The notes under the pieces were generated by a model that saw only the letters and a program-made list of their open reading frames with translations, was not told where the DNA came from and did not search any database. Shown one piece after another: positions 25,586 through 38,149 of a stretch of DNA of 64,000 nt (its first letter is position 1; each line of letters starts with the position of its first letter). Source of the DNA: Thiotrichaceae bacterium (GTDB lineage: Bacteria > Pseudomonadota > Gammaproteobacteria > SZUA-140); NCBI GenBank assembly GCA_002401765.2, contig NVTY02000079.1, positions 62,001 through 126,000 on the forward strand, read 5' to 3'. The translations under genes and the position numbers were made by a program.

Positions 25586-27313
25586 CTACCACTGATAATG
25601 TGCTTCAACTCGAGTTCCTTTTTTTGTGTATAAAAGGGATGTGCAGAGCGATTTCACAAGGTTAATGCCTCGGCCATGAGAATTTTTATTGTCTTCTAGT
25701 GAACTATTACTACTTGATATGTCAAAACCAGTGCCTGTATCTTCAATAATGATGATAATATTCCCGCCATGATTAGACGGCAGTGGGTGATGTTCAATTG
25801 AAATTTCAATGGATGAGTTTTTAAGGTTTGATAGCGCCAATTCTCTAGCATTATAGTACTCAGTAAATCCCTGTGGATTTTCTTTGATAGACGAATCTAG
25901 TCTCAAAATTCCGTGCTCTAGTGAATTTGAATATAATTCTGATAGTATCGTGTATATCCTTTCTCTGTGCTCTGATAATCCCTGAATTTCCATTATAGAT
26001 TGAGTAATCAGCGGGCATGGGTTGGTTTGCTGTAATGCACCGGCACCAAGTTTCATCGATAAAGCCCAGTTCACAGATACTAGCACCTGGTCATTTTTTT
26101 CAGTGTGTGTATTATCTATGGTATCAAGTGGTTTTGCTGCGATTTCAATAAGTGTAATGTCATCAAACTGTTCGGTATTTCTACAAAATTGATTGATAGA
26201 GTCTTCTATTGCGGAAAATGGGTTACGATTATTTTGGGATTCAAGTAACACGGCGTCTAGTCTTTCTTGGGTATACATATTTCCCTGGCTATTTTGTGCC
26301 TCGACGACACCATCAGATACCATGTAAATTTTATCATTGGCACCCAGCTCAATAAACTCTACACTTCTGTCAAACTCATCACTATTAAGAACACCTAAGG
26401 GCAGGTGACTTGATGGGATTTTAATTGGAGGGGCATCATTTGTGGTAATAATGATGTCAGGGTTCCCCCCATTCCAAACCGCGACCGTCCTAAATGCCTC
26501 ATCAGCTTCAATTAGGCATGTGGCGCAAAAAAAACCTGACGGTAATGTCTCTTTTAGGCGCTTATTGATATTGAACGCGATGTCGCCGATAGAGTAGCCC
26601 TTAGAGGACAGGCTATAAAAGGTGTCAGAGACCGGTATAGCACCTATAGCGGCTGAAAGCCCATGCCCTGTAAAGTCACCTAGCATGACATGCATGCCAC
26701 CAGATGGGGTTCGTGAACAGAGTAAAATGTCGCCACTGGTAATGGACATCGGCTTGAGCAGATATTGAATATTAGCTATCTCAAGGTTTTTTGGATTCGT
26801 GATGTTGGTGAAAATGGTTTCAGCAATTTCATGTTCTAGCTGTAGTCGACTATGATGTTCTTGTAACTCAGACTTACTATCTGCGATTCGGTTATACAGC
26901 CCGCGCACGCGCACCATTGCATTAATTTTTGCATTTATAATGGTGCTGTTATACGGCTTTGTAATGAAGTCATCACCACCATATTCGATGCATTTCGCTA
27001 ACGCATTTTCATCTGTGATTGCGGTTAGAAAAATAATAGGAACAAAGACCTCGCCGCAAATACGCTTTATTTCTACTGCTGCATCATAGCCATTCATGAC
27101 GGGCATCATGACATCCATTAATATAATATCAGGGCGGTTATTGCCATACATCCTCACTGCCTCTTCTCCATTTACAGCAGAAATGACGTTGTAGCCTAGT
27201 TTTTTAATTAGTGTAGAGAGAATTAGTCTATTTGTCTTATCATCATCGACAATAAGGACTGAAAGAGGGGGGGGATCTGGCATGCCAGTAGTACTAATGC
27301 TTACATCGTCCAT
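25586..27313 (-). CDS. hsbR: HsbR-like response regulator: receiver, PP2C-type phosphatase and anti-sigma kinase domain
   Basis: A 575-residue protein of three parts: receiver (15-135, LIVDDDKTNRLIL, phospho-acceptor Asp67 in ILMDVMMP), SpoIIE/RsbU-type PP2C (about 175-385, with DFTGHGLSAAIGAIP and YMVSDGVVEA) and a C-terminal GHKL anti-sigma-type kinase (about 425-575, with LYSNSLEHGIL, IIEDTGTGFD and GRGINLVKSL). This is the HsbR architecture, a switch that phosphorylates or dephosphorylates its STAS partner depending on receiver phosphorylation. The gene directly follows hsbA (42 bases), as expected for a partner-switching pair. Confidence 0.93.
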   Translation of the reverse strand: MDDVSISTTGMPDPPPLSVLIVDDDKTNRLILSTLIKKLGYNVISAVNGEEAVRMYGNNRPDIILMDVMMPVMNGYDAAVEIKRICGEVFVPIIFLTAITDENALAKCIEYGGDDFITKPYNSTIINAKINAMVRVRGLYNRIADSKSELQEHHSRLQLEHEIAETIFTNITNPKNLEIANIQYLLKPMSITSGDILLCSRTPSGGMHVMLGDFTGHGLSAAIGAIPVSDTFYSLSSKGYSIGDIAFNINKRLKETLPSGFFCATCLIEADEAFRTVAVWNGGNPDIIITTNDAPPIKIPSSHLPLGVLNSDEFDRSVEFIELGANDKIYMVSDGVVEAQNSQGNMYTQERLDAVLLESQNNRNPFSAIEDSINQFCRNTEQFDDITLIEIAAKPLDTIDNTHTEKNDQVLVSVNWALSMKLGAGALQQTNPCPLITQSIMEIQGLSEHRERIYTILSELYSNSLEHGILRLDSSIKENPQGFTEYYNARELALSNLKNSSIEISIEHHPLPSNHGGNIIIIIEDTGTGFDISSSNSSLEDNKNSHGRGINLVKSLCTSLLYTKKGTRVEAHYQW

Positions 27314-27355: not shown

Positions 27356-27664
27356 TTATTCGATGGTAAAAAGCTTGTCAAAATTTGATATCGACAGAAT
27401 GTTCTTTATCTCTTTGTTACAGTTTTTGAGGGTAATCGCAGTTTCTCCTCCTCCTGTACGTTCTTTTAGAACTAGAAGCATGCCGAGAGCAGAGCTGTCC
27501 ATATATTCAGTCTGTGAGAGATTGATAATGAATTTTATGTTACCTTTGCTCAGAGTACTTTCATATGCATCTCTGAAATCTTTGTATAGATTAAAATCAA
27601 AACGACCATTGATTGAGATGGTGAGAGATGTTCCATCTCTAGATAATTGAGTTGTTAGAGCCAT
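27356..27664 (-). CDS. hsbA: HsbA-like anti-sigma-factor antagonist (STAS)
   Basis: A 102-residue single STAS domain with the phosphorylatable site in YMDSSALGML (Ser57/Ser58). In P. aeruginosa HsbA, when unphosphorylated, binds FlgM and thereby frees FliA; when phosphorylated it turns to the diguanylate cyclase HsbD. FlgM is encoded 12 kb upstream in this window. The gene sits between the MCP-like gene and hsbR, all co-directional. STAS proteins are short, so the specific HsbA identity is inferred from the neighbouring hsbR and hptB. Confidence 0.86.
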   Translation of the reverse strand: MALTTQLSRDGTSLTISINGRFDFNLYKDFRDAYESTLSKGNIKFIINLSQTEYMDSSALGMLLVLKERTGGGETAITLKNCNKEIKNILSISNFDKLFTIE

Positions 27665-29012: not shown

Positions 29013-30104
29013 TTATTTGATTTTATTTACAAGTGTGATTATCTTTGCTGATATAGAATTAAGCGGTAGTATGCTATCCACGCCACCTAATTTTACGGCC
29101 TCGCCAGGCATACCCCACACAACACTTGTTTTTTCATCCTGAGCGATGGTGGCAGCACCCACTTCATTCAACTCTTTCATACCTGCAGCGCCATCATCCC
29201 CCATACCCGTGAGTATCACTCCGATGGCATTATGGCCGACATTCTGAGCGACTGAGCGGAACATGACGTCTACAGAGGGGCGATGTCTGTTTACAGGCAG
29301 GCCATCGTTTAGGCGGCAGACAAAGCGTGCACCATCTCGCTCAATCAGCAAGTGATGGCTTCCCGGTGCAATATATGCATGCCCAGGAAGTATTTGTTGA
29401 CCATCGTGAGCTTCATATACGGTCATGGCAGAGCAGCCATTCATTCTTTTAGCGAATGGCGTACTAAATGCTTCGGGTATATGCTGTGAAATGACCATGC
29501 CTGGCGCATCTGCTGGCATTTTCATTAAGACTTCCTTAATTGCTTCAGTGCCACCTGTTGAAGCACCCAGCGCAATAATCGTATCGGTAGTTTTGAAGTG
29601 TCGTTTAGTGGCGCGATTGTTTTTCTCTAAGATGACATCGGCTGAATTTTTAGCGGCTACTTCGCCAATTGAATTGGACGATTCTGTCATGGCATGGACA
29701 TTAGCAGTTGATGCAGCTTTTACTTTGCTAGTTATTTCATAAGTATAATCAGGCAATGAATGGGCAAGGTCTAGTTTTGGTTTAGAGACAAAATCAACCG
29801 CGCCAGATGCAAGTGCTTCTAGTGTGATATCCGCACCTTTTTCGGTGAGTGATGAGATCATGATGACGGGTATTGGGTGCAATCTCATTAGATTCTTAAG
29901 GAATGTGATTCCATCCATGCGGGGCATTTCAACATCAAGTGTGATCACATCTGGCTTGAGTTTTTTTATCTTTTCTCTTGCGACAAATGGGTCCTGTGCA
30001 GTGCCAACAACCTCAATATCTTTATCAGTTTCTAGTATCTCACTAAGAAGCTTACGAATCAGAGATGAGTCGTCAACGATGAGTACTTTTATTTTTTTGA
30101 TCAT
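29013..30104 (-). CDS. cheB: Chemotaxis methylesterase/glutamine deamidase CheB
   Basis: A 363-residue CheB with an N-terminal receiver ([14 protein letters not shown], Asp57 in [12 protein letters not shown]) and a C-terminal esterase. Catalytic elements are visible: Ser in [11 protein letters not shown], His in SQHIPEAFS and Asp in [12 protein letters not shown]. Phosphorylated by CheA, it removes methyl groups from receptors. The start is 9 bases after cheD and the gene closes the Che2-like block R-D-B. Confidence 0.97.
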
Positions 30105-30113
30105 GTTAGCCCC

Positions 30114-30746
30114 TCAGAAAAGTTCAATATCGCTTTTAACGGGCTTATTGATGAGGTCTTTCATGTAGTCTGCTTCACGCTCAATCACAGTTTCATTATG
30201 GAGTTTTCTTAGTTTCTTGATCCTCACGCGACCAGAATCAGGGAAATAATATACTTTTCTTGGGTGAGCGGAACCGACGTCACTTGAAAGTAAGTTTAGC
30301 CCTTCAGTTTTTATATAAGTAATTGCAAACTCAATATTCCGTTCTCCTACATCCGTCACATTCCTTAAGATCTTTCCGCCACCAAATATCTTTACTTCAA
30401 GGTTTTTCTTCTTCCCTCCATTTTTTAAAATTTCATTGATTAACATCTCCATTGCGAAGTTACCATACCGTGCTGATTCACTGAGTTTGGCGCCATTCCC
30501 GCTATTATCAGCTGGAAGCATGAAATGGTTCATCCCACCTATACCCGCTTGGGGGTCTCGTATGCATGCCGATATGCAAGATCCTAACACCGTTACAATG
30601 GCTTCATTTTCTTTGGTGACGTAAAATTGTCCTGGTAGGATCTTTGCAGAGATCAGTTCATTTTGCTTGTCCCAGTAACGATTTATGTGAGAAAACCCTG
30701 GTAGGCATTCTGAAATCTGGACGTTATTTCCACTTTGTAAAGGCAT
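30114..30746 (-). CDS. cheD: Receptor glutamine deamidase CheD
   Basis: A 210-residue CheD with the catalytic Cys57 in VLGSCISACIRD and His74 in GGMNHFMLP. CheD deamidates receptor glutamines and can bind CheC/CheX-type phosphatases; a CheX-like gene is present at 60.8 kb. The C-terminus SDIELF resembles the VELF end of the MCP-like protein in the same run. The protein lies 10 bases after cheR and 9 before cheB. Confidence 0.96.
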   Translation of the reverse strand: MPLQSGNNVQISECLPGFSHINRYWDKQNELISAKILPGQFYVTKENEAIVTVLGSCISACIRDPQAGIGGMNHFMLPADNSGNGAKLSESARYGNFAMEMLINEILKNGGKKKNLEVKIFGGGKILRNVTDVGERNIEFAITYIKTEGLNLLSSDVGSAHPRKVYYFPDSGRVRIKKLRKLHNETVIEREADYMKDLINKPVKSDIELF

Positions 30747-30756
30747 TAGACTTCTC

Positions 30757-31590
30757 TTATTTTATTTTCTTATAGATAGTTTGCCCAAGTAGACTAAATC
30801 GATCAGATACTTTAAAGAGTGACTCAGAGTGCCCTATAAATAAATGTGCATCATTTTTTAAAACGTTTGCATATCTGTTAAATAGAGCTTTCTGTGTCTC
30901 TTTGTCAAAATAAATCACGACATTTCTACAGAATATAAAATCAAATGGCCCTTTTGTTGGCCATTCACGTAGTAAGTTAAGCTGTTTAAAGGTGATTAAA
31001 TCCTGTAGCTCAGGTCTGACACGCACGGTTCCTGCGTTATCACCTTTGCCCTTAAGGAACCATTTCTTTTTACGTCCACTACTCAAACTATCAATGCGGT
31101 CGCTCTTATAAACACCATTTTTAGCGGTATTTAATACATCAGAGTCCAAGTCTGTTGCCAGTATCTTGACATCCCATGAGTCGACCGAAGGGATTGCCTC
31201 TTTCATTGCAATGGCAAGTGAATAAGGCTCTTCGCCTGTCGAACATCCTGCCGACCAAATCCTAATGCGTTTATCACTGTTGGATTTAGTTAACGCTGGA
31301 ATGAGCGTTTTTGCCAGGTGCTGAAAGTGGTGGTCTTCTCTGAAAAATGCAGTCAGGTTAGTGGTGATCGCATTCGTAAACTTAATAAGTTCATCACCAT
31401 CTCCGCCCTCAACAAGCGAGCAATAATCTGAAAAATGGTCGATTTTAAGGGCTCTCAGTCGCCTGGATAGGCGACTGTAAACCATGTCCTTTTTGGCATT
31501 AGATAGCGAGATCCCAGTGTGACTCTTGACAAGGGTTCTAACCTTTTTGAAGTCCTTATCAGTAAAGTCAAAATCACGAATTTTTTCCAT
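30757..31590 (-). CDS. cheR: Chemoreceptor methyltransferase CheR (Che2-type)
   Basis: A 277-residue CheR with an N-terminal helical domain (VKSHTGISLSNAKKDMVYSRLSRRL) and a SAM-binding domain (IRIWSAGCSTGEEPYSLAI; DLDSDVLNTAKNGVY; FDFIFCRNVVIYFD). It lies directly after the receptor gene whose product ends in EWEEF, the type of pentapeptide that tethers CheR or CheB, so it is probably the dedicated methyltransferase of that receptor. A second cheR lies at 41.9 kb with the flagellar genes. Confidence 0.96.
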   Translation of the reverse strand: MEKIRDFDFTDKDFKKVRTLVKSHTGISLSNAKKDMVYSRLSRRLRALKIDHFSDYCSLVEGGDGDELIKFTNAITTNLTAFFREDHHFQHLAKTLIPALTKSNSDKRIRIWSAGCSTGEEPYSLAIAMKEAIPSVDSWDVKILATDLDSDVLNTAKNGVYKSDRIDSLSSGRKKKWFLKGKGDNAGTVRVRPELQDLITFKQLNLLREWPTKGPFDFIFCRNVVIYFDKETQKALFNRYANVLKNDAHLFIGHSESLFKVSDRFSLLGQTIYKKIK

Positions 31591-31624: not shown

Positions 31625-34429
31625 TTAAAATTCTTCCCATTCATCGCTGTCGACGGTTGTATTTTTCTGTTTAGCGCGTGGCGCTGATTTTTTTTTTGGT
31701 GCAGCAGTACGCGCTTCGGGTGCTCTGTTTCGAGCCTTAGCTCTTGGTCTTGCTGGCGGTGCTTCATCACTATCATCAGCGCCAAAAAACTCCATCAGTT
31801 GTGAGAGCCCTTTAGATTGCTCATCCATCGATTCACTGGCGGCGGCGGCTTCTTCAACCAGTGCGGCGTTCTGTTGTGTTACCTCATCCATCTGGATAAT
31901 GGCTTTATTGACCTGGTCAATGCCGGCTGATTGTTCCTGACTTGCGGCTGCGATTTCGGCGATAATATCACTTACTTTTTTCACAGCAGTTACAATTTCT
32001 TCTAGTGTTTTTCCCGATTCATCAACCAGTTTGCTGCCTTCATCAACCTTCTCAACACTGTCATTGATTAAGGCCTTGATCTCTTTTGCAGCAGCTGCAC
32101 TTCGTTGTGCCAGATTTCTTACTTCACCTGCGACAACTGCAAATCCTCTTCCTTGTTCGCCTGCACGAGCTGCCTCGACGGCTGCATTCAGTGCTAATAA
32201 ATTTGTCTGGAATGCTATTTCATCAATGACACTAATGATGTCTGCTATTTTCTTACTGCTGTTGTTGATTTCGGACATTGCCGATACTGCTTTGCCAACA
32301 ACTTTCCCGCCTTTTTCTGCTTGTTCTCGCGCACCACTGGCCAACTGATTGGCCTGGTTTGCATTATCAGCATTTTGTTTCACTGTCCCTGTTAATTGCT
32401 CCATGCTGGATGCCGTTTCTTCGAGTGAAGAGGCTTGTTCTTCTGTGCGCTGGCTTAGATCCTGATTACCTTGGGCGATCTCACCAGCACCAGATGTGAT
32501 GGCGGATGCAGATTCTCTTATATCACCTACCATATTGCGAAGATTATTAACTGAAGTATCAATCGCCTCTTGTAATATGGCGAATTCACCTTCAAATTCT
32601 CCGTTCATATTTTGAGAAAGATCGCCTTCCGCAAGGGCTTTCATCACTCTTGTCCCTTCTTGTACTGGGTCTACGACTGCATCTAGCATCTGATTAATGC
32701 CATCTGAAAGGGTTTTCATGAAACCCTCATATGAGGATGAGTCAATTCTTTTGGACAGATCACCAGCAGATGCAGCGTCAATCAGCGCTTGCATTTGGCG
32801 TTCAGCATCTTTCTGTTCGGTGATATCTCGCCATTCCACCATGTTGCCCATTAAGTTTCCTTCGCCATCGATGATTGCGGTGGCATTAACCTCGAATTCA
32901 AGATCTGCTACACGTAACTCAGCCTTTGCAGGCAAGTTGTTTTTATTGCCGAGCAGGGCACGCTGGTGTGATGGGTTTTTATGGAATTGGTCAATACATT
33001 GCCCAACCAGGTTATGAGGATCAAACCCCGGGAATGCGGCACGAAGTTGCGTTTCTCGCTTCACTAGCATCTGAATGACTGAAGGGTTGACGTATGTAAT
33101 AGTGAGGTCGGTATCACATAGCATCAAATTTGTTTGTGCACCATCAACGGCTGATTGCAATCTTGCCACTTCGAGTTCTTTGATACGCTGCTCTGTTACA
33201 TCAGACCATTCGAGTGAATTTCCGATATATTCCCCACTGCTATCAAGCATCGCGCTGACATTAATTCTGAATTTTAATGGCCCTACTGCGATGTCAGTAG
33301 AATAGGGGAAATTGTTAGGATTATTTAACAATTGTCTTTGATGTGCTGGATTTTTATGAAATATATCGATACAGGTACCAATGATATTATTGACCTCAAA
33401 GCCTGGATATACGGATTTTAGTGCGTTTTCATGTGATCTCAATAAGGCAATGGTGGAGTCATTCGCATAGGTGACTACCAGGTCTCTATCGATCATCATA
33501 ATGGATGTCATGGCGTTATCAACGGTTGATTGCAGGCGCATTACATCATCTTCTTTTTTCCTCACTTCGGTTACATCGGCCCATTCAAGTGAATTTCCTA
33601 GGTGGTTCCCATCATGATCGAGAATGGCGCTGGCATTGATATTAAACTTCAAGGGGCCAACCTGAATATCAGTTGAATAGGGCATATTGGCTGGATTGGC
33701 TAGGATTTTTCGTTGATGCGAAGGATCTTTATGAAAGATATCAATACATGTCCCTACAATGCCATCGACAGTAAATCCAGGAAAAAGCGAGGTCAGGGCC
33801 TCTTTATTTTTTTTGAGTAATGCGATAGTTGCATCATTTGCGTAGGTGATGACTAAGTCTAAATCGATCATCATAAAAGGTGTCATGGCATTATCAACGG
33901 CAGCTTTCATTCGCAGCGCATGATCGTCCTTGACTTCTTTAATTCCAGATTTTACTGATTTTGTTGATGATGCCATGATTGAATTCTCCATTTTCCTGTA
34001 GTTGCCTATCATTGTAGTTGCGACGTTATTTAATGCCATCTGCCACATGCTTTCGATTTTCCCTGACCATTCATCTTCGGCAACTTGTTTCATTACATCA
34101 AGTAATGTAGTAACTACCGCTTCATAATGTTCTGGTTTAGCACCATATTGAATATGTTTTTCACCCAAGGATGACAATATGGTTTTGAGTTCATCAGGTT
34201 TTCTCAGGCTGCTGACAACGGTTGAGAGTGCTGATATAAGTTTTTTTTCCTGCTCTTTTATGCGGGTATTTTTAAATAAAGGTTTTACAGCGGGGTGCCT
34301 TAAAAATAGCTCTTTGTAGAATAGCTTTGATATCTGATTAGCCTTAGGAGCTAATTTCTCAAAGCTAACTTCAATTAATGAAATATCTAACTTCATTTCT
34401 TCTTTGGGTTTTTCAAGTAACGACGTCAT
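31625..34429 (-). CDS. Soluble chemoreceptor: globin, three PAS, HAMP repeat, MCP signalling domain, EWEEF tail (Aer2-like)
   Basis: A 934-residue protein with no TM segment. Residues 15-150 are a globin close to the flavohaemoglobin/Vitreoscilla type, with Tyr38 (B10), Phe52 (CD1) and proximal His92 in [14 protein letters not shown]. Three PAS repeats follow (about 165-285, 290-410, 415-535). Each carries FHKxPxHQR and a closing EWxDxTE, which resembles the haem-PAS of Aer2 including its conserved His and Trp. Then come two HAMP-like units (about 540-635), an MCP hairpin ([19 protein letters not shown]) and a C-terminal EWEEF pentapeptide. The order cheY-cheA-cheW-receptor-cheR-cheD-cheB is that of Pseudomonas Che2, where the receptor is Aer2. 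Oxygen or NO sensing is inferred from the haem residues. Confidence 0.92.
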
Positions 34430-34479
34430 TTTTTCACGCCCCTGTTAGACGTTAATGTTACTGCTATTTTAATCGGCAT
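34426..34479 (-). CDS. 17-codon leader peptide ORF coupled to the receptor start
   Basis: A short frame with a good ribosome site (AAGGAG, 8-base spacing) encodes [17 protein letters not shown]. Its TGA overlaps the receptor ATG as ATGA. The peptide has no recognisable domain. The arrangement would make receptor translation depend on ribosomes finishing this ORF. It may instead simply mark a strong initiation region; there is no direct evidence of expression. Confidence 0.45.
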
Positions 34480-34500
34480 TTTACCATCTCCTTAGCTAAT

Positions 34501-34668
34501 CTAGCCGTACCATGTCATATCTGAAAATATCTGTTCTAGTATTTTAGTATTTTCATTGTTAGATCGAGAATCATCATTTCTAGTTTTATTATCGACATGA
34601 TGATTTCCTTTATCATTACGCTGTTTTTGATTTTTTTGATGAGTCGTACTGATTTTAGAACTTTTCAT
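34501..34668 (-). CDS. 55-residue uncharacterised protein between cheW and the receptor
   Basis: This small gene starts at ATG 34668 with AGGG 8 bases upstream and ends at TAG 34501-34503. The first 40 residues are extremely polar (Lys, Asn, Asp, His, Arg; for example KNQKQRNDKGNHH), and the last 13 form an amphipathic or hydrophobic end (KILEQIFSDMTWYG). I do not recognise it. It is 26 bases after cheW and co-directional, so it is probably translated with the array components. A disordered linker plus a short docking helix would fit a tether or adaptor, which is only a guess. Confidence 0.6.
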   Translation of the reverse strand: MKSSKISTTHQKNQKQRNDKGNHHVDNKTRNDDSRSNNENTKILEQIFSDMTWYG

Positions 34669-34694
34669 TTGTCAAACCCTAGTTATAAAGTCAC

Positions 34695-35207
34695 TTATTG
34701 AAGAAGTTCATCGGCATTATCCATGATGCCACTATTCAATAATTTGTCGATCTCAAGTACGATCACCATTTTTTCTTCTAGCGTTGCCAGGCCTTTAACG
34801 TAGTCGATACTGATTGTTCCGAAATCTGGTGGCGGCTTCATCTCGTCTTCTGAAACGTTATATACATCGGACACTGCATCAACAACGATGCCCATTGTTC
34901 TATTACCATTTTCACTTTCGACTTTCAGTACGATCACCACCGTCGTTGCACCATAAGGAATTTCATCGAGTGAAAAACGGTGTCTCAAATCAATGATGGG
35001 CACAATGGTACCGCGAAGATTAATCACCCCTTTAATATAGTCGGGTGTATTTGGAATAGGGGTGACACTATCCCAGCCCTTTATCTCTTGTACCCGTAAT
35101 ATATCTACTCCATATTCTTCGCCTGCAAGAATGAATGTTAGGTATTGATCTGTATCTGTCATGACATCAACGGCGGTGTTTGTATCGACATGTTGTGCTG
35201 TACTCAT
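34695..35207 (-). CDS. cheW: Chemotaxis coupling protein CheW
   Basis: A 170-residue single CheW domain with YLTFILAGEEYGVDILRVQEI, TPIPNTPDYIKGVINLRG and VVIVLKVESENGNRTMGIVVDAVSD-type strands (shown in part). It couples receptors to CheA. It starts 12 bases after cheA, and the N-terminal 20 residues before the domain are polar. It belongs to the Che2-like block rather than to cheV of the flagellar cluster. Confidence 0.97.
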   Translation of the reverse strand: MSTAQHVDTNTAVDVMTDTDQYLTFILAGEEYGVDILRVQEIKGWDSVTPIPNTPDYIKGVINLRGTIVPIIDLRHRFSLDEIPYGATTVVIVLKVESENGNRTMGIVVDAVSDVYNVSEDEMKPPPDFGTISIDYVKGLATLEEKMVIVLEIDKLLNSGIMDNADELLQ

Positions 35208-35219
35208 AGTTTCATCTCC

Positions 35220-37295
35220 TTACGCAACTTCCCTTACGCCACTTTCCGGGCTGCGCTTGGGTGTTGGTGGATTTCGTGATAGATCAATTAACCCATCGAC
35301 ATCTAGAATTAGTGCAACTGTTCCATCGCCAAGAATGGTGGCCCCTGAAACACCATCGACACGTTTGTAATTCGTTTCTAAGCTCTTAATCACGACTTGT
35401 TGTTGTCCAAGCAGTTCATCGACAAGTAACCCTACTTTTTTACCATCACCTTCAACAACAACTAGTAAGCCACCTTCAAGGCTTTTTCTTTTGATCTTAA
35501 TCCCGAAAATATCGTGCATTCGTACGATAGGGATGTATTCATCACGGACTTTATAAAGCTCAGTTTGGCCTGCAATGTTATTCACAAATTCTTTTTTAAT
35601 CTGTAGTGATTCAACGATTGAAACCAGTGGGGTGATATAAATTTCGTCGCCGACACAAACAAGTTGTCCATCAAGAATGGCAAGTGTCAATGGCAATCTT
35701 ATTGTAAATGTGGTGCCATTACCTGCTTCTGATTTAACATCAATATTTCCACCAAGCTCTCTAATGTTTCTTTTCACGACATCCATGCCTACACCGCGCC
35801 CAGATATGTCACTCAACTGCTCAGCAGTGGAGAATCCTGGTTGGAATATAAGGTCATAAATCTTATCATCTGTAAGATTTTCATCACTACCGATAAGTTC
35901 TTTTTCAATTGCTTTGGCCTTTATTTTTTCCTTATTAAACCCAGCACCATCATCCTTAATCTCTATAATGATGTTTCCACCCTTGTGAAATGCATTCAAC
36001 TCAATAGTGCCAGATTCTGGTTTTCCTGCGGCCAGGCGCTCTGCTGGCATTTCAATGCCGTGATCAATGGAGTTTCTGACGAGATGCACGAGCGGGTCGC
36101 CAATTTTCTCCATCACAGTTTTATCGAGTTCGGTCTGTTCGCCGGTGGTCTTTAGCTCAATTTTCTTATCTAATTGTTGGCAAAGATCGTGTACCATTCT
36201 GGGGAATCGGTTAAATGCAAAGCTAATGGGAAGCATGCGGATGCGCATGACACTCTCTTGAAGCTCGCGGGTGTTTCGTTCTAATAACGTTAATCCATCG
36301 CGGAGTTTTTCCATGCGAGTGATATCAAAGTCGTCAAAATCGCAGTCGAGCTGTCCAATCATTGACTGTGTAATGACCAGTTCACCAACCATATTAATCA
36401 GCGCATCTACCTTATCAATACTGACCCGAATTGATGCGCTATCAGTATTGACTGGATATTTATTTGCCGTTGATTTCGCTGCTGCCTTAGGTGTGGGGGA
36501 TACGGATTTTGTATTGTTTTCAGCGACAGCCTCTTTTGATACCTCATTTGACTGTGGGGCATCACTTTTGATCTCAATAATCTCAAAGTCACATTCATCC
36601 TCAACCCATTCAAATATTTCTTTAACTTTTTCAATTTCAATATTTTCCTTGAGCGTCAACTCCCATGATAAATATGATTCTTCTGGATCAAGGTCATCAA
36701 GTATGGGCAGTTGAGAAATATCCACTTCAACTGACAGTGCCCCCAATTCTGCTAGCTCTCTAAACATTCTAACCGGATCATTACCTGTTTTAAGCATGTC
36801 ATGATAAGGCTTAAACTTTATCTTCCATCCTTCACGATCATCACTGGAGCCTGGTGTGGCCGTCGTTTTGTTTTTTTCAATGGTATGAGTTGCTGCGCTG
36901 TTGTTACCGGACGCTAAAATTTCTTCTAGCTCAGATTTTAGCTCGGCAGCACGCTCTGTATCGATAGGTGTTTTGTCCCTTGATGCGGCTAGCATTTGAC
37001 GTAAACAGTCTACTGACTGGAGGAGTGTATCGACAGAGACTTGTGTGACATCACGACTGCCATCCCTCATTTCATCAAGCAGCGTTTCCATTCCGTGGGT
37101 GAAATCTGCGACGTCGGTAAAGCCGAAGGTTGCACTGCCGCCTTTAATAGAATGGGCAGCGCGAAAAATTGAATTAACGGTTTCATCATCCGCTGCGCCA
37201 ATGTCCAGGTTTAATAACCCTGATTCCATTATGTCGAGTCCTTCGAAGCTTTCTTCGAAGAAGGTGCCGTGAAATTGTGTGATATCTATTGTCAT
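35220..37295 (-). CDS. cheA: Chemotaxis histidine kinase CheA
   Basis: A 691-residue CheA: Hpt/P1 with His48 in FRAAHSIKGGS, a linker and CheY-binding P2-like region (about 150-250), the P3 dimerisation helix (about 290-350), P4 ATPase (LVHLVRNSIDHGIE, DDGAGFN, GRGVGMDVVKRN) and a P5 CheW-like regulatory domain (about 545-680). It autophosphorylates and feeds CheY and CheB in the same operon. All catalytic motifs are intact. cheY ends 6 bases before its start. Confidence 0.97.
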   Translation of the reverse strand: MTIDITQFHGTFFEESFEGLDIMESGLLNLDIGAADDETVNSIFRAAHSIKGGSATFGFTDVADFTHGMETLLDEMRDGSRDVTQVSVDTLLQSVDCLRQMLAASRDKTPIDTERAAELKSELEEILASGNNSAATHTIEKNKTTATPGSSDDREGWKIKFKPYHDMLKTGNDPVRMFRELAELGALSVEVDISQLPILDDLDPEESYLSWELTLKENIEIEKVKEIFEWVEDECDFEIIEIKSDAPQSNEVSKEAVAENNTKSVSPTPKAAAKSTANKYPVNTDSASIRVSIDKVDALINMVGELVITQSMIGQLDCDFDDFDITRMEKLRDGLTLLERNTRELQESVMRIRMLPISFAFNRFPRMVHDLCQQLDKKIELKTTGEQTELDKTVMEKIGDPLVHLVRNSIDHGIEMPAERLAAGKPESGTIELNAFHKGGNIIIEIKDDGAGFNKEKIKAKAIEKELIGSDENLTDDKIYDLIFQPGFSTAEQLSDISGRGVGMDVVKRNIRELGGNIDVKSEAGNGTTFTIRLPLTLAILDGQLVCVGDEIYITPLVSIVESLQIKKEFVNNIAGQTELYKVRDEYIPIVRMHDIFGIKIKRKSLEGGLLVVVEGDGKKVGLLVDELLGQQQVVIKSLETNYKRVDGVSGATILGDGTVALILDVDGLIDLSRNPPTPKRSPESGVREVA

Positions 37296-37301
37296 TTCAG
37301 A

Positions 37302-37664
37302 TCACCCCAGCACTTTATTGATTGTTGCTAGCAATTGATCGGGATCAAATGGCTTAACAATCCACCCAGTTGCACCCGCGTCTTTTCCTTCCTGCTTTTT
37401 ATGAGGCGCAGATTCAGTGGTGAGCATTAATATAGGTGTGAATTTGTAATCGGGTAGATTACGCAGCTCTCTAATTAGCTGGATACCATCCATATTAGGC
37501 ATATTGACATCTGTGAGGACCAGGTTTACCTTATTTTCCTGAGCTGCTTTTAGGCCATCAACGCCATCAACCGCCTCTACAACATCATGCCCTGCATTCT
37601 TTAGCGCAAAAGACACCATTTGACGCATTGATGCCGAATCGTCTACTGCTAGAATACTTGCCAT
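37302..37664 (-). CDS. cheY: Chemotaxis response regulator CheY (Che2-type)
   Basis: A 120-residue single receiver: acidic pair Asp8/Asp9 in LAVDDSASMR, phospho-acceptor Asp52 in LVLTDVNMPNMDG, switch Thr in MLTTES and Lys in WIVKPF. It is the cognate output or phosphate sink of the adjacent CheA. In Pseudomonas Che2 systems the corresponding CheY does not obviously bind the flagellar motor, so a role outside swimming bias is possible. Confidence 0.96.
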   Translation of the reverse strand: MASILAVDDSASMRQMVSFALKNAGHDVVEAVDGVDGLKAAQENKVNLVLTDVNMPNMDGIQLIRELRNLPDYKFTPILMLTTESAPHKKQEGKDAGATGWIVKPFDPDQLLATINKVLG

Positions 37665-37718: not shown

Positions 37719-38036
37719 CTAGCTAGTAGCTGGAATTTCAAGGTGCTCACTAAGGCCTAATTGTTCTATGGATTTTGAAAATATACCTGATGGGGGAGTC
37801 CATTCGCATTTGATTTTTTTTGACTTCGCATCTTGATAAAATGCACACAACATCTGTGCGCCTGCTGTATCAATGCGTTCTATATTTGATATGTTAATGG
37901 ATATGTCACGCCCGGCACTGAGGGATTCTTTGAGCTTTTGATTGATCTCATTGACCATGGAAATGTCTAGCAGGTCTCCGCAGTCAATCGTAATATCTTG
38001 TGCGGTTGACTTATTTTTTTTCGAATTTTTGGCCAT
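37719..38036 (-). CDS. STAS-domain protein heading the che operon
   Basis: A 105-residue STAS domain preceded by a Lys/Asn-rich tail (AKNSKKNK). At the position where anti-sigma antagonists have a phosphorylatable Ser it has Asp56-Thr57 (ERIDTAGAQML). I start it at ATG 38036, inside a longer open frame whose upstream part lies across the FliA promoter and cannot be translated from that transcript. Its role is unknown; it could be a second target of the HsbR switch. The other STAS protein in the run (HsbA) has Ser-Ser here. Confidence 0.88.
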   Translation of the reverse strand: MAKNSKKNKSTAQDITIDCGDLLDISMVNEINQKLKESLSAGRDISINISNIERIDTAGAQMLCAFYQDAKSKKIKCEWTPPSGIFSKSIEQLGLSEHLEIPATS

Positions 38037-38091
38037 TGATTTATCGTCCCTGGTGGTTCTTCGACAACATCCTGTTGCTACTGCAATCCAG

Positions 38092-38118
38092 ATATCGTCA
38101 GTCAAATCTAAAACTTTA
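38092..38118 (-). promoter_or_regulatory. FliA (sigma-28) promoter of the STAS-cheYAW operon
   Basis: Minus strand: TAAAGTTT (38111-38118, 8 of 8), 11 bases, GACGATAT (38092-38099, 6 of 8 with GCCGATAA). It lies 55 bases before the STAS start and downstream of the flgAMN-PilZ operon terminator. Confidence 0.82.
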
Positions 38119-38149
38119 ACGAATGTCAAATCCGTTATATTCGTGGTTT

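Follow-up and report, generated by a model that had tools for sequence, protein, structure and literature searches.

A conserved small gene, unnamed in databases, beside the globin-type receptor gene of an F7 chemotaxis operon in a Thiotrichaceae bacterium

Introduction

F7 chemosensory systems are ancestral to the E. coli array, according to the excerpts of PMC7184735 used here. The same excerpts describe the stage-1 F7 cluster of V. cholerae and M. alcaliphilum as consisting of STAS, cheY, cheA, cheW, an aer2-like receptor, cheR, cheD, cheB, a second receptor, an antagonist and a phosphatase, with two cheW-like genes, and give no cheZ for stage-1 or stage-2 F7 clusters. A gene set like that analysed below is also found at the che1/crs locus of Shewanella oneidensis, which the excerpts of PMC9855816 describe with 10 genes, none of them of a microprotein kind. 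The early inputs of F7 systems are poorly understood, and a microprotein largely tied to a globin sensor would offer a direct way into the question of how such arrays incorporate a soluble oxygen receptor. More generally, operon annotation misses parts even of a well-known machine. Here we analyse a 64,000-nucleotide stretch of a Thiotrichaceae genome (the window) that carries such an operon with a small gene between cheW and the receptor gene.

Results and discussion

A stage-1-like F7 operon with one cheW and a small gene

The window operon matches the stage-1 F7 cluster in gene order, as that order is set out in the excerpts of PMC7184735, with cheB and the antagonist assigned by sequence and place only. 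It differs from stage 1 in having one cheW (two were seen in 12 Alteromonadales loci), in the globin domain of its receptor and in the microprotein gene between cheW and that receptor. The features are as follows.

25586..27313, minus strand: receiver-SpoIIE phosphatase-ATPase protein in a CrsR-like position (PF07228, PF00072, HATPase_c)
27356..27664, minus strand: 102-aa protein in the position of CrsA, an anti-sigma-factor antagonist (gene order as in the excerpts of PMC9855816 and PMC7184735)
27712..28935, minus strand: second receptor, McpA-like position (PF00015)
29013..30104, minus strand: cheB, named by sequence alone
30114..30746, minus strand: cheD (domain scan)
30757..31590, minus strand: cheR (domain scan)
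31625..34429, minus strand: receptor with globin (PF00042, 2.3e-15), PAS repeats, HAMP, MCP signalling domain (PF00015, 2.8e-60) and C-terminal EWEEF; proposed partner of the small protein
34501..34668, minus strand: small gene, 55 aa, ATG to TAG (ORF list, relatives, motif and codon counts)
34504..34536, minus strand: codons of the conserved C-terminal motif EQIFSDMTWYG (family profile)
34537..34668, minus strand: variable, polar, presumably disordered N-terminal part, without cysteine in the window's member
34695..35207, minus strand: cheW, single copy (PF01584, 1.1e-39)
35220..37295, minus strand: cheA, 691 aa (sequence; relative L093 aligned)
37302..37664, minus strand: cheY (PF00072)
37719..38129, minus strand: STAS protein, 5′-most in the cluster (domain scan)

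The first-pass annotation had reported a complete 55-codon frame with a ribosome site between cheW and the receptor gene. The frame is present, running in the direction of the operon from ATG to TAG, and the plus strand of 34501..34668 holds no open frame. A ribosome site is likewise present upstream but is weak in the window (AGGG about 8 bases 5′ of the ATG); the relatives G003 and G004 have AGGA at this site. GC content around the small gene is 33%. The encoded protein has the C-terminus KILEQIFSDMTWYG, ends in TWYG and contains no cysteine over its whole length. A second mini-frame, of 17 codons and with a ribosome site, lies at 34426-34479 on the minus strand and shares an ATGA overlap with the start of the receptor gene; G009, G003, G004 and G006 have comparable frames.

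The small gene is conserved in relatives

A protein search of 55 related genomes recovered the small gene from five genomes of the same genus, in the same position and at 67 to 38% identity, and matched one same-family genome through the end of the small protein. The gene is kept in all five same-genus genomes in which cheW and a downstream F7 receptor were found (G001, G003, G004, G006 and G009), while the remaining four of the nine same-genus genomes yielded no such receptor locus, three giving no receptor match and one a paralogue. Translation of cheW-receptor gaps of further families revealed short frames with the same end. At the codon level, dN was lower than dS in all five pairs counted. 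Over the last 14 residues, G004 and G006 differ by five synonymous and no nonsynonymous changes, and L093 and L094 by three and one; pairs with the window's own sequence gave raw synonymous to nonsynonymous counts of 2:4 and 3:5, the nonsynonymous rate per site still being the lower one. Both signs that the first-pass annotation had suggested looking for, a frame kept in relatives with the same operon and a synonymous-rich end, were therefore seen, the synonymous excess in some of the pairs. Because the frame is conserved in the same gap of relatives and shows synonymous-biased change, we conclude that it is a conserved gene, unnamed and overlooked by databases.

A family defined by its C-terminal tail

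We examined 97 loci, 80 of them found by receptor alignment and 17 from whole genomes. In 78 of the 97, cheW is followed by a globin receptor, and 72 distinct gaps remained after duplicates were dropped by gap sequence. When scored with a leave-near-out profile that covers the 11 C-terminal residues, 42 of these 72 gaps contained an ORF with the tail motif at a threshold of 8, and 44 at the lower threshold of 6; the antisense control gave 0/72, and dinucleotide shuffles (n=30) a mean of 0.03/72 at score 8. These counts, with the same placement in relatives, bear out the earlier preference for a gene over a chance frame. The gap is AT-rich and the N-terminal part of low complexity, as a chance open frame would have it, but such a frame would not be expected to be kept in relatives, to recur by its tail in 42/72 gaps or to change with a synonymous bias, and we give this explanation next to no credence.

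With the 44 proteins found at score 6 and two added by eye (L143 and L146), the family has 46 members of 25 to 86 residues. Its C-terminal motif has I, V or L at −8, F or L at −7, S or A at −6, L, M or I at −4, A, S or V at −3, W or F at −2 and G at 0, positions −5 and −1 being free. S or A at −6 and W or F at −2 are found in 46/46 tails and G at 0 in 41/46; in L125 and L127 an otherwise similar tail has R where the motif has W. The N-terminal part varies freely, conservation being confined to the last ~12 residues. Mean hydropathy has maxima at −12/−11, −8/−7 and −4/−3, as in an amphipathic helix. Judged by this pattern, the conserved tail is a predicted amphipathic segment ending W-x-G.

AlphaFold was run on two natural read-through chains, CheY-CheA-CheW-small from L135 (1112 aa) and CheA-P5-CheW-small-globin-PAS1 from L098 (745 aa). 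A helix is drawn at the tail in both models, with low confidence. In the L135 chain, the tail helix has a pLDDT of 46-60 and shows no confident docking on CheY, CheA or CheW, CheW itself being poorly modelled, and in the L098 chain the tail has a pLDDT of 25-35 and makes no confident contact with CheA-P5, CheW, globin or PAS1. The underlying alignments were thin (43 and 26 rows), so that CheW was poorly modelled and the result is weak evidence either way. The first-pass annotation had pictured a disordered tether with a docking helix for an array component; the architecture is plausible and fits a variable N-terminal part followed by a conserved terminal helix, but the docking draws no support from tails modelled at these pLDDT values.

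Pfam and NCBIfam scans of 38 members gave no family match, only isolated single hits (best E 0.032 and 0.037); a Pfam scan of the window's protein gave no match, a PDB profile search returned no match up to E 10, and a description of this small protein was not found in the literature searched. C-terminal fusions were considered as a clue to the partner, and the candidates from the profile search, L071 and L088, proved false. We also considered the N-terminal part, which has a median net charge of +0.11 per residue, as a basic nucleoid tether (cf. the excerpts of PMC5716589); this is no general rule, as members such as L098 are acidic. The receptor pentapeptide tether for CheR/CheB, given in the excerpts of PMC7184735 as C-terminal x-[HFYW]-x2-[HFYW], resembles the small protein in having an aromatic residue near the C-terminus and in belonging to the same operon, but TWYG, and W-x-G in the family, do not fit its pattern. 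A pentapeptide-like end, EWEEF, is carried by the operon's receptor itself.

The C-terminal helix of CheZ binds CheY. Like the tail of the small protein it is C-terminal and amphipathic, with an L-L-S-x-L-G-F like spacing, and because of this similar spacing we considered that the tail may bind CheY-P as the CheZ helix does, acting as a sink, shield or guide. In relatives, CheZ has the C-terminal sequence VDDLLSSLGF; under a 9-column family profile, scores at least as high are reached by 8 of 690 background protein ends. In the excerpts of PMC7184735, cheZ is missing from stage-1 and stage-2 F7 clusters. That profile rank is weak, however, tails such as IWILSGLAWMG are without an acidic part, and the small protein differs from CheZ in its W-x-G end, in its occurrence with globin receptors and in having neither a CheZ domain (PF04344 was absent from all 38 members scanned) nor a phosphatase domain. 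Moreover, the AlphaFold model is without confident docking on CheY, and a CheY-binding role would leave the tie to globin receptors unexplained. We regard it as improbable. CheZ is encoded by a separate gene in 14 of the 20 genomes searched.

The small gene mostly accompanies globin-type receptors

A cheW-anchored sample was drawn from 369 genomes of the class, 84 of which matched, with 88 matches, and 71 loci were read (30 + 40 + L173). Removal of 24 that duplicated members of the 72 left 47 new loci: 12 had a globin receptor, 32 had none, and L216, L232 and L233 were excluded from the count for having too little downstream sequence. Among the 32, about 3.2 kb downstream was read for 22 and about 1.4-1.5 kb for ten, and a receptor of some kind lies downstream in 21. 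In a first count the tail ORF was present in 6/12 new loci with a downstream globin receptor and in 0/32 without. One of the latter, locus L200 of G322, has the order cheA-parA-small-globin receptor-cheW-cheR, with the globin receptor upstream of cheW, which argues that the small gene goes with the receptor and not with cheW. With G322 moved, the small gene is found in 7/13 loci with a globin receptor versus 0/31 without (Fisher p 4.5e-5, a value that ignores relatedness). Ten other loci without globin were read upstream (L264 in part) and showed neither globin nor tail.

The small gene thus occurs far more with a globin-type receptor than with F7 operons whose receptor lacks globin. Because loci with the conserved tail almost always have a globin sensor on the adjacent receptor, the product of the gene is presumably a small helper of that receptor. 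On a CheW tree, the presence of the small gene requires 18 changes, and supported branches force only two; the tree has only three supported independent globin contrasts, and on average the small gene follows the globin in 1.7 of them (p 0.5 in a sign test that carried G322 as without globin).

The operon of G369 resembles those of its relatives except that it contains neither small gene nor globin; downstream of its cheW lies a PAS receptor gene. The flanks align to L121, which has both, at 83-84% DNA identity and frame a missing block of ~700 bases, and the G369 cheW is very close to those of L121 and L129 in the CheW tree. This single event may be a loss or a gain. The joint absence of the small gene and the receptor's globin end would also suit a regulatory leader or arrest peptide that controls translation of the downstream receptor, as would the usual position directly upstream of the receptor gene and the restriction of conservation to the C-terminus. 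That position is not fixed, however: in L154 and L160 the small gene is separated from the receptor gene by parA and by a STAS gene carrying a DPLAW motif, and is therefore not invariably placed as its leader. In addition, the point at which the protein terminates varies by one to two residues (WNG, WNGW, WKGA, WTTKG), and 34300-35000 gave no Rfam match, a search that would miss an undescribed element. Control of receptor translation by this peptide is hence, in our estimation, quite doubtful.

A parA gene is present in 21 of the 46 loci with the small gene, which is accordingly not fixed to parA; the parA genes here go with the receptor DPLAW motif and not with the microprotein. The array-positioning proteins ParP and ParC, as presented in the excerpts of PMC5706961, are likewise accessory to arrays, whereas the small protein is without any Pfam domain. 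Where a ParA-like gene stands between cheW and the receptor gene (ParA+ loci, L096-L171), the N-terminus of the receptor carries a DPLAW motif; in L154 and L160 this motif is found instead on a separate STAS-like protein.

Exceptions and absences

In G001, from the window's genus, the small gene is intact and its product ends ERIFEQILSNVAWYG, yet the neighbouring receptor begins with PAS and carries no globin domain. Nor was a globin found elsewhere in the 9 kb read around the small gene; a CheW-globin fusion is encoded on another contig. G001 falls outside the 72 gaps because its receptor is without globin. Strict dependence on globin, which we had considered, is ruled out by this receptor: globin on the receptor is not required, and the small protein can persist without it. 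Either the globin was lost recently or the helix docks on the remaining part of the receptor.

Conversely, 26 of the 72 globin loci are without the small gene (by-eye additions counted as present), and no such ORF lies near the orphan globin receptors L142, L145, L151 and L152. A globin domain in CheA was considered as the reason for absence. It is found in 4/4 ParA+ loci that have a complete CheA and no small gene, but G178 and six further loci without the small gene have a plain CheA, so that it explains only some cases. In L097, L102, L132 and L156 the CheA globin domain is an insertion that precedes the dimerisation domain (PF00042, E 9e-12 for L132 and 7e-14 for L156).

Because the small gene sits where stage 1 has its second cheW-like gene (excerpts of PMC7184735), we also weighed a core-array adaptor, whose helix would dock on CheW/CheA or the receptor tip and replace that gene. 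Consistent with this, the small gene is absent from 12/12 two-cheW loci, loci with the small gene and a complete cheA have one cheW in 29/29 cases, and G001 retains the small gene without a receptor globin. The 12 two-cheW loci, however, all belong to one Alteromonadales clade, eight single-cheW loci are also without the small gene, and the gene is absent from 31/31 F7 cheW loci without a globin receptor; nor did the tail dock confidently in the L135 chain, where CheW was modelled poorly. An adaptor of this kind is unlikely, if still to be taken seriously.

A candidate accessory protein of the receptor

Taken together, the genomic comparisons suggest that the small gene is associated with the globin-type receptor rather than with the cheW/cheA core, G001 being the one exception. 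Our preferred reading, tentative and at slightly less than even confidence, is that the small protein acts as an accessory to the globin-type (Aer2-like) F7 receptor, in stage-1-like F7 operons whose receptor usually has an N-terminal globin. We infer the accessory role, the partner and the mechanism, and in particular the docking of the terminal helix because of its conservation and pattern. The variable N-terminal part would serve as a spacer, and the terminal helix may pack into a groove of the sensory end of the receptor, at the globin, the globin-PAS junction or a PAS domain. This helix has hydrophobic positions at −12/−11, −8/−7 and −4/−3 and the tryptophan at −2, with small residues at −6, −3 and 0. 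Its binding could adjust how the receptor responds to oxygen or how this array layer is packed.

A Cys-Pro-hydrophobic motif lies upstream of the helix in 14 of the 46 members, distributed over several tail types, where about one would be expected by shuffling. This motif of about one third of the members resembles haem regulatory motifs and leaves room for a role linked to haem. In a haem-linked subunit, the helix would dock on the sensory module while the motif binds or hands over haem, thereby loading or gating the oxygen sensor; we consider this very improbable.

Further globin genes

The window's own genome also encodes a CheW-globin-globin fusion of 469 residues (L175:3242-4651, plus strand), and a similar globin pair is present in G009. 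A second globin-PAS receptor of this genome lies outside a che operon (L174:4545-7175, minus strand), and its counterparts are L142 and L145. L135 was considered as a stand-alone globin and rejected as a frameshifted receptor. At L111:2694-5399, six tandem globin matches lie in and before the receptor, in a frame of 1844 residues.
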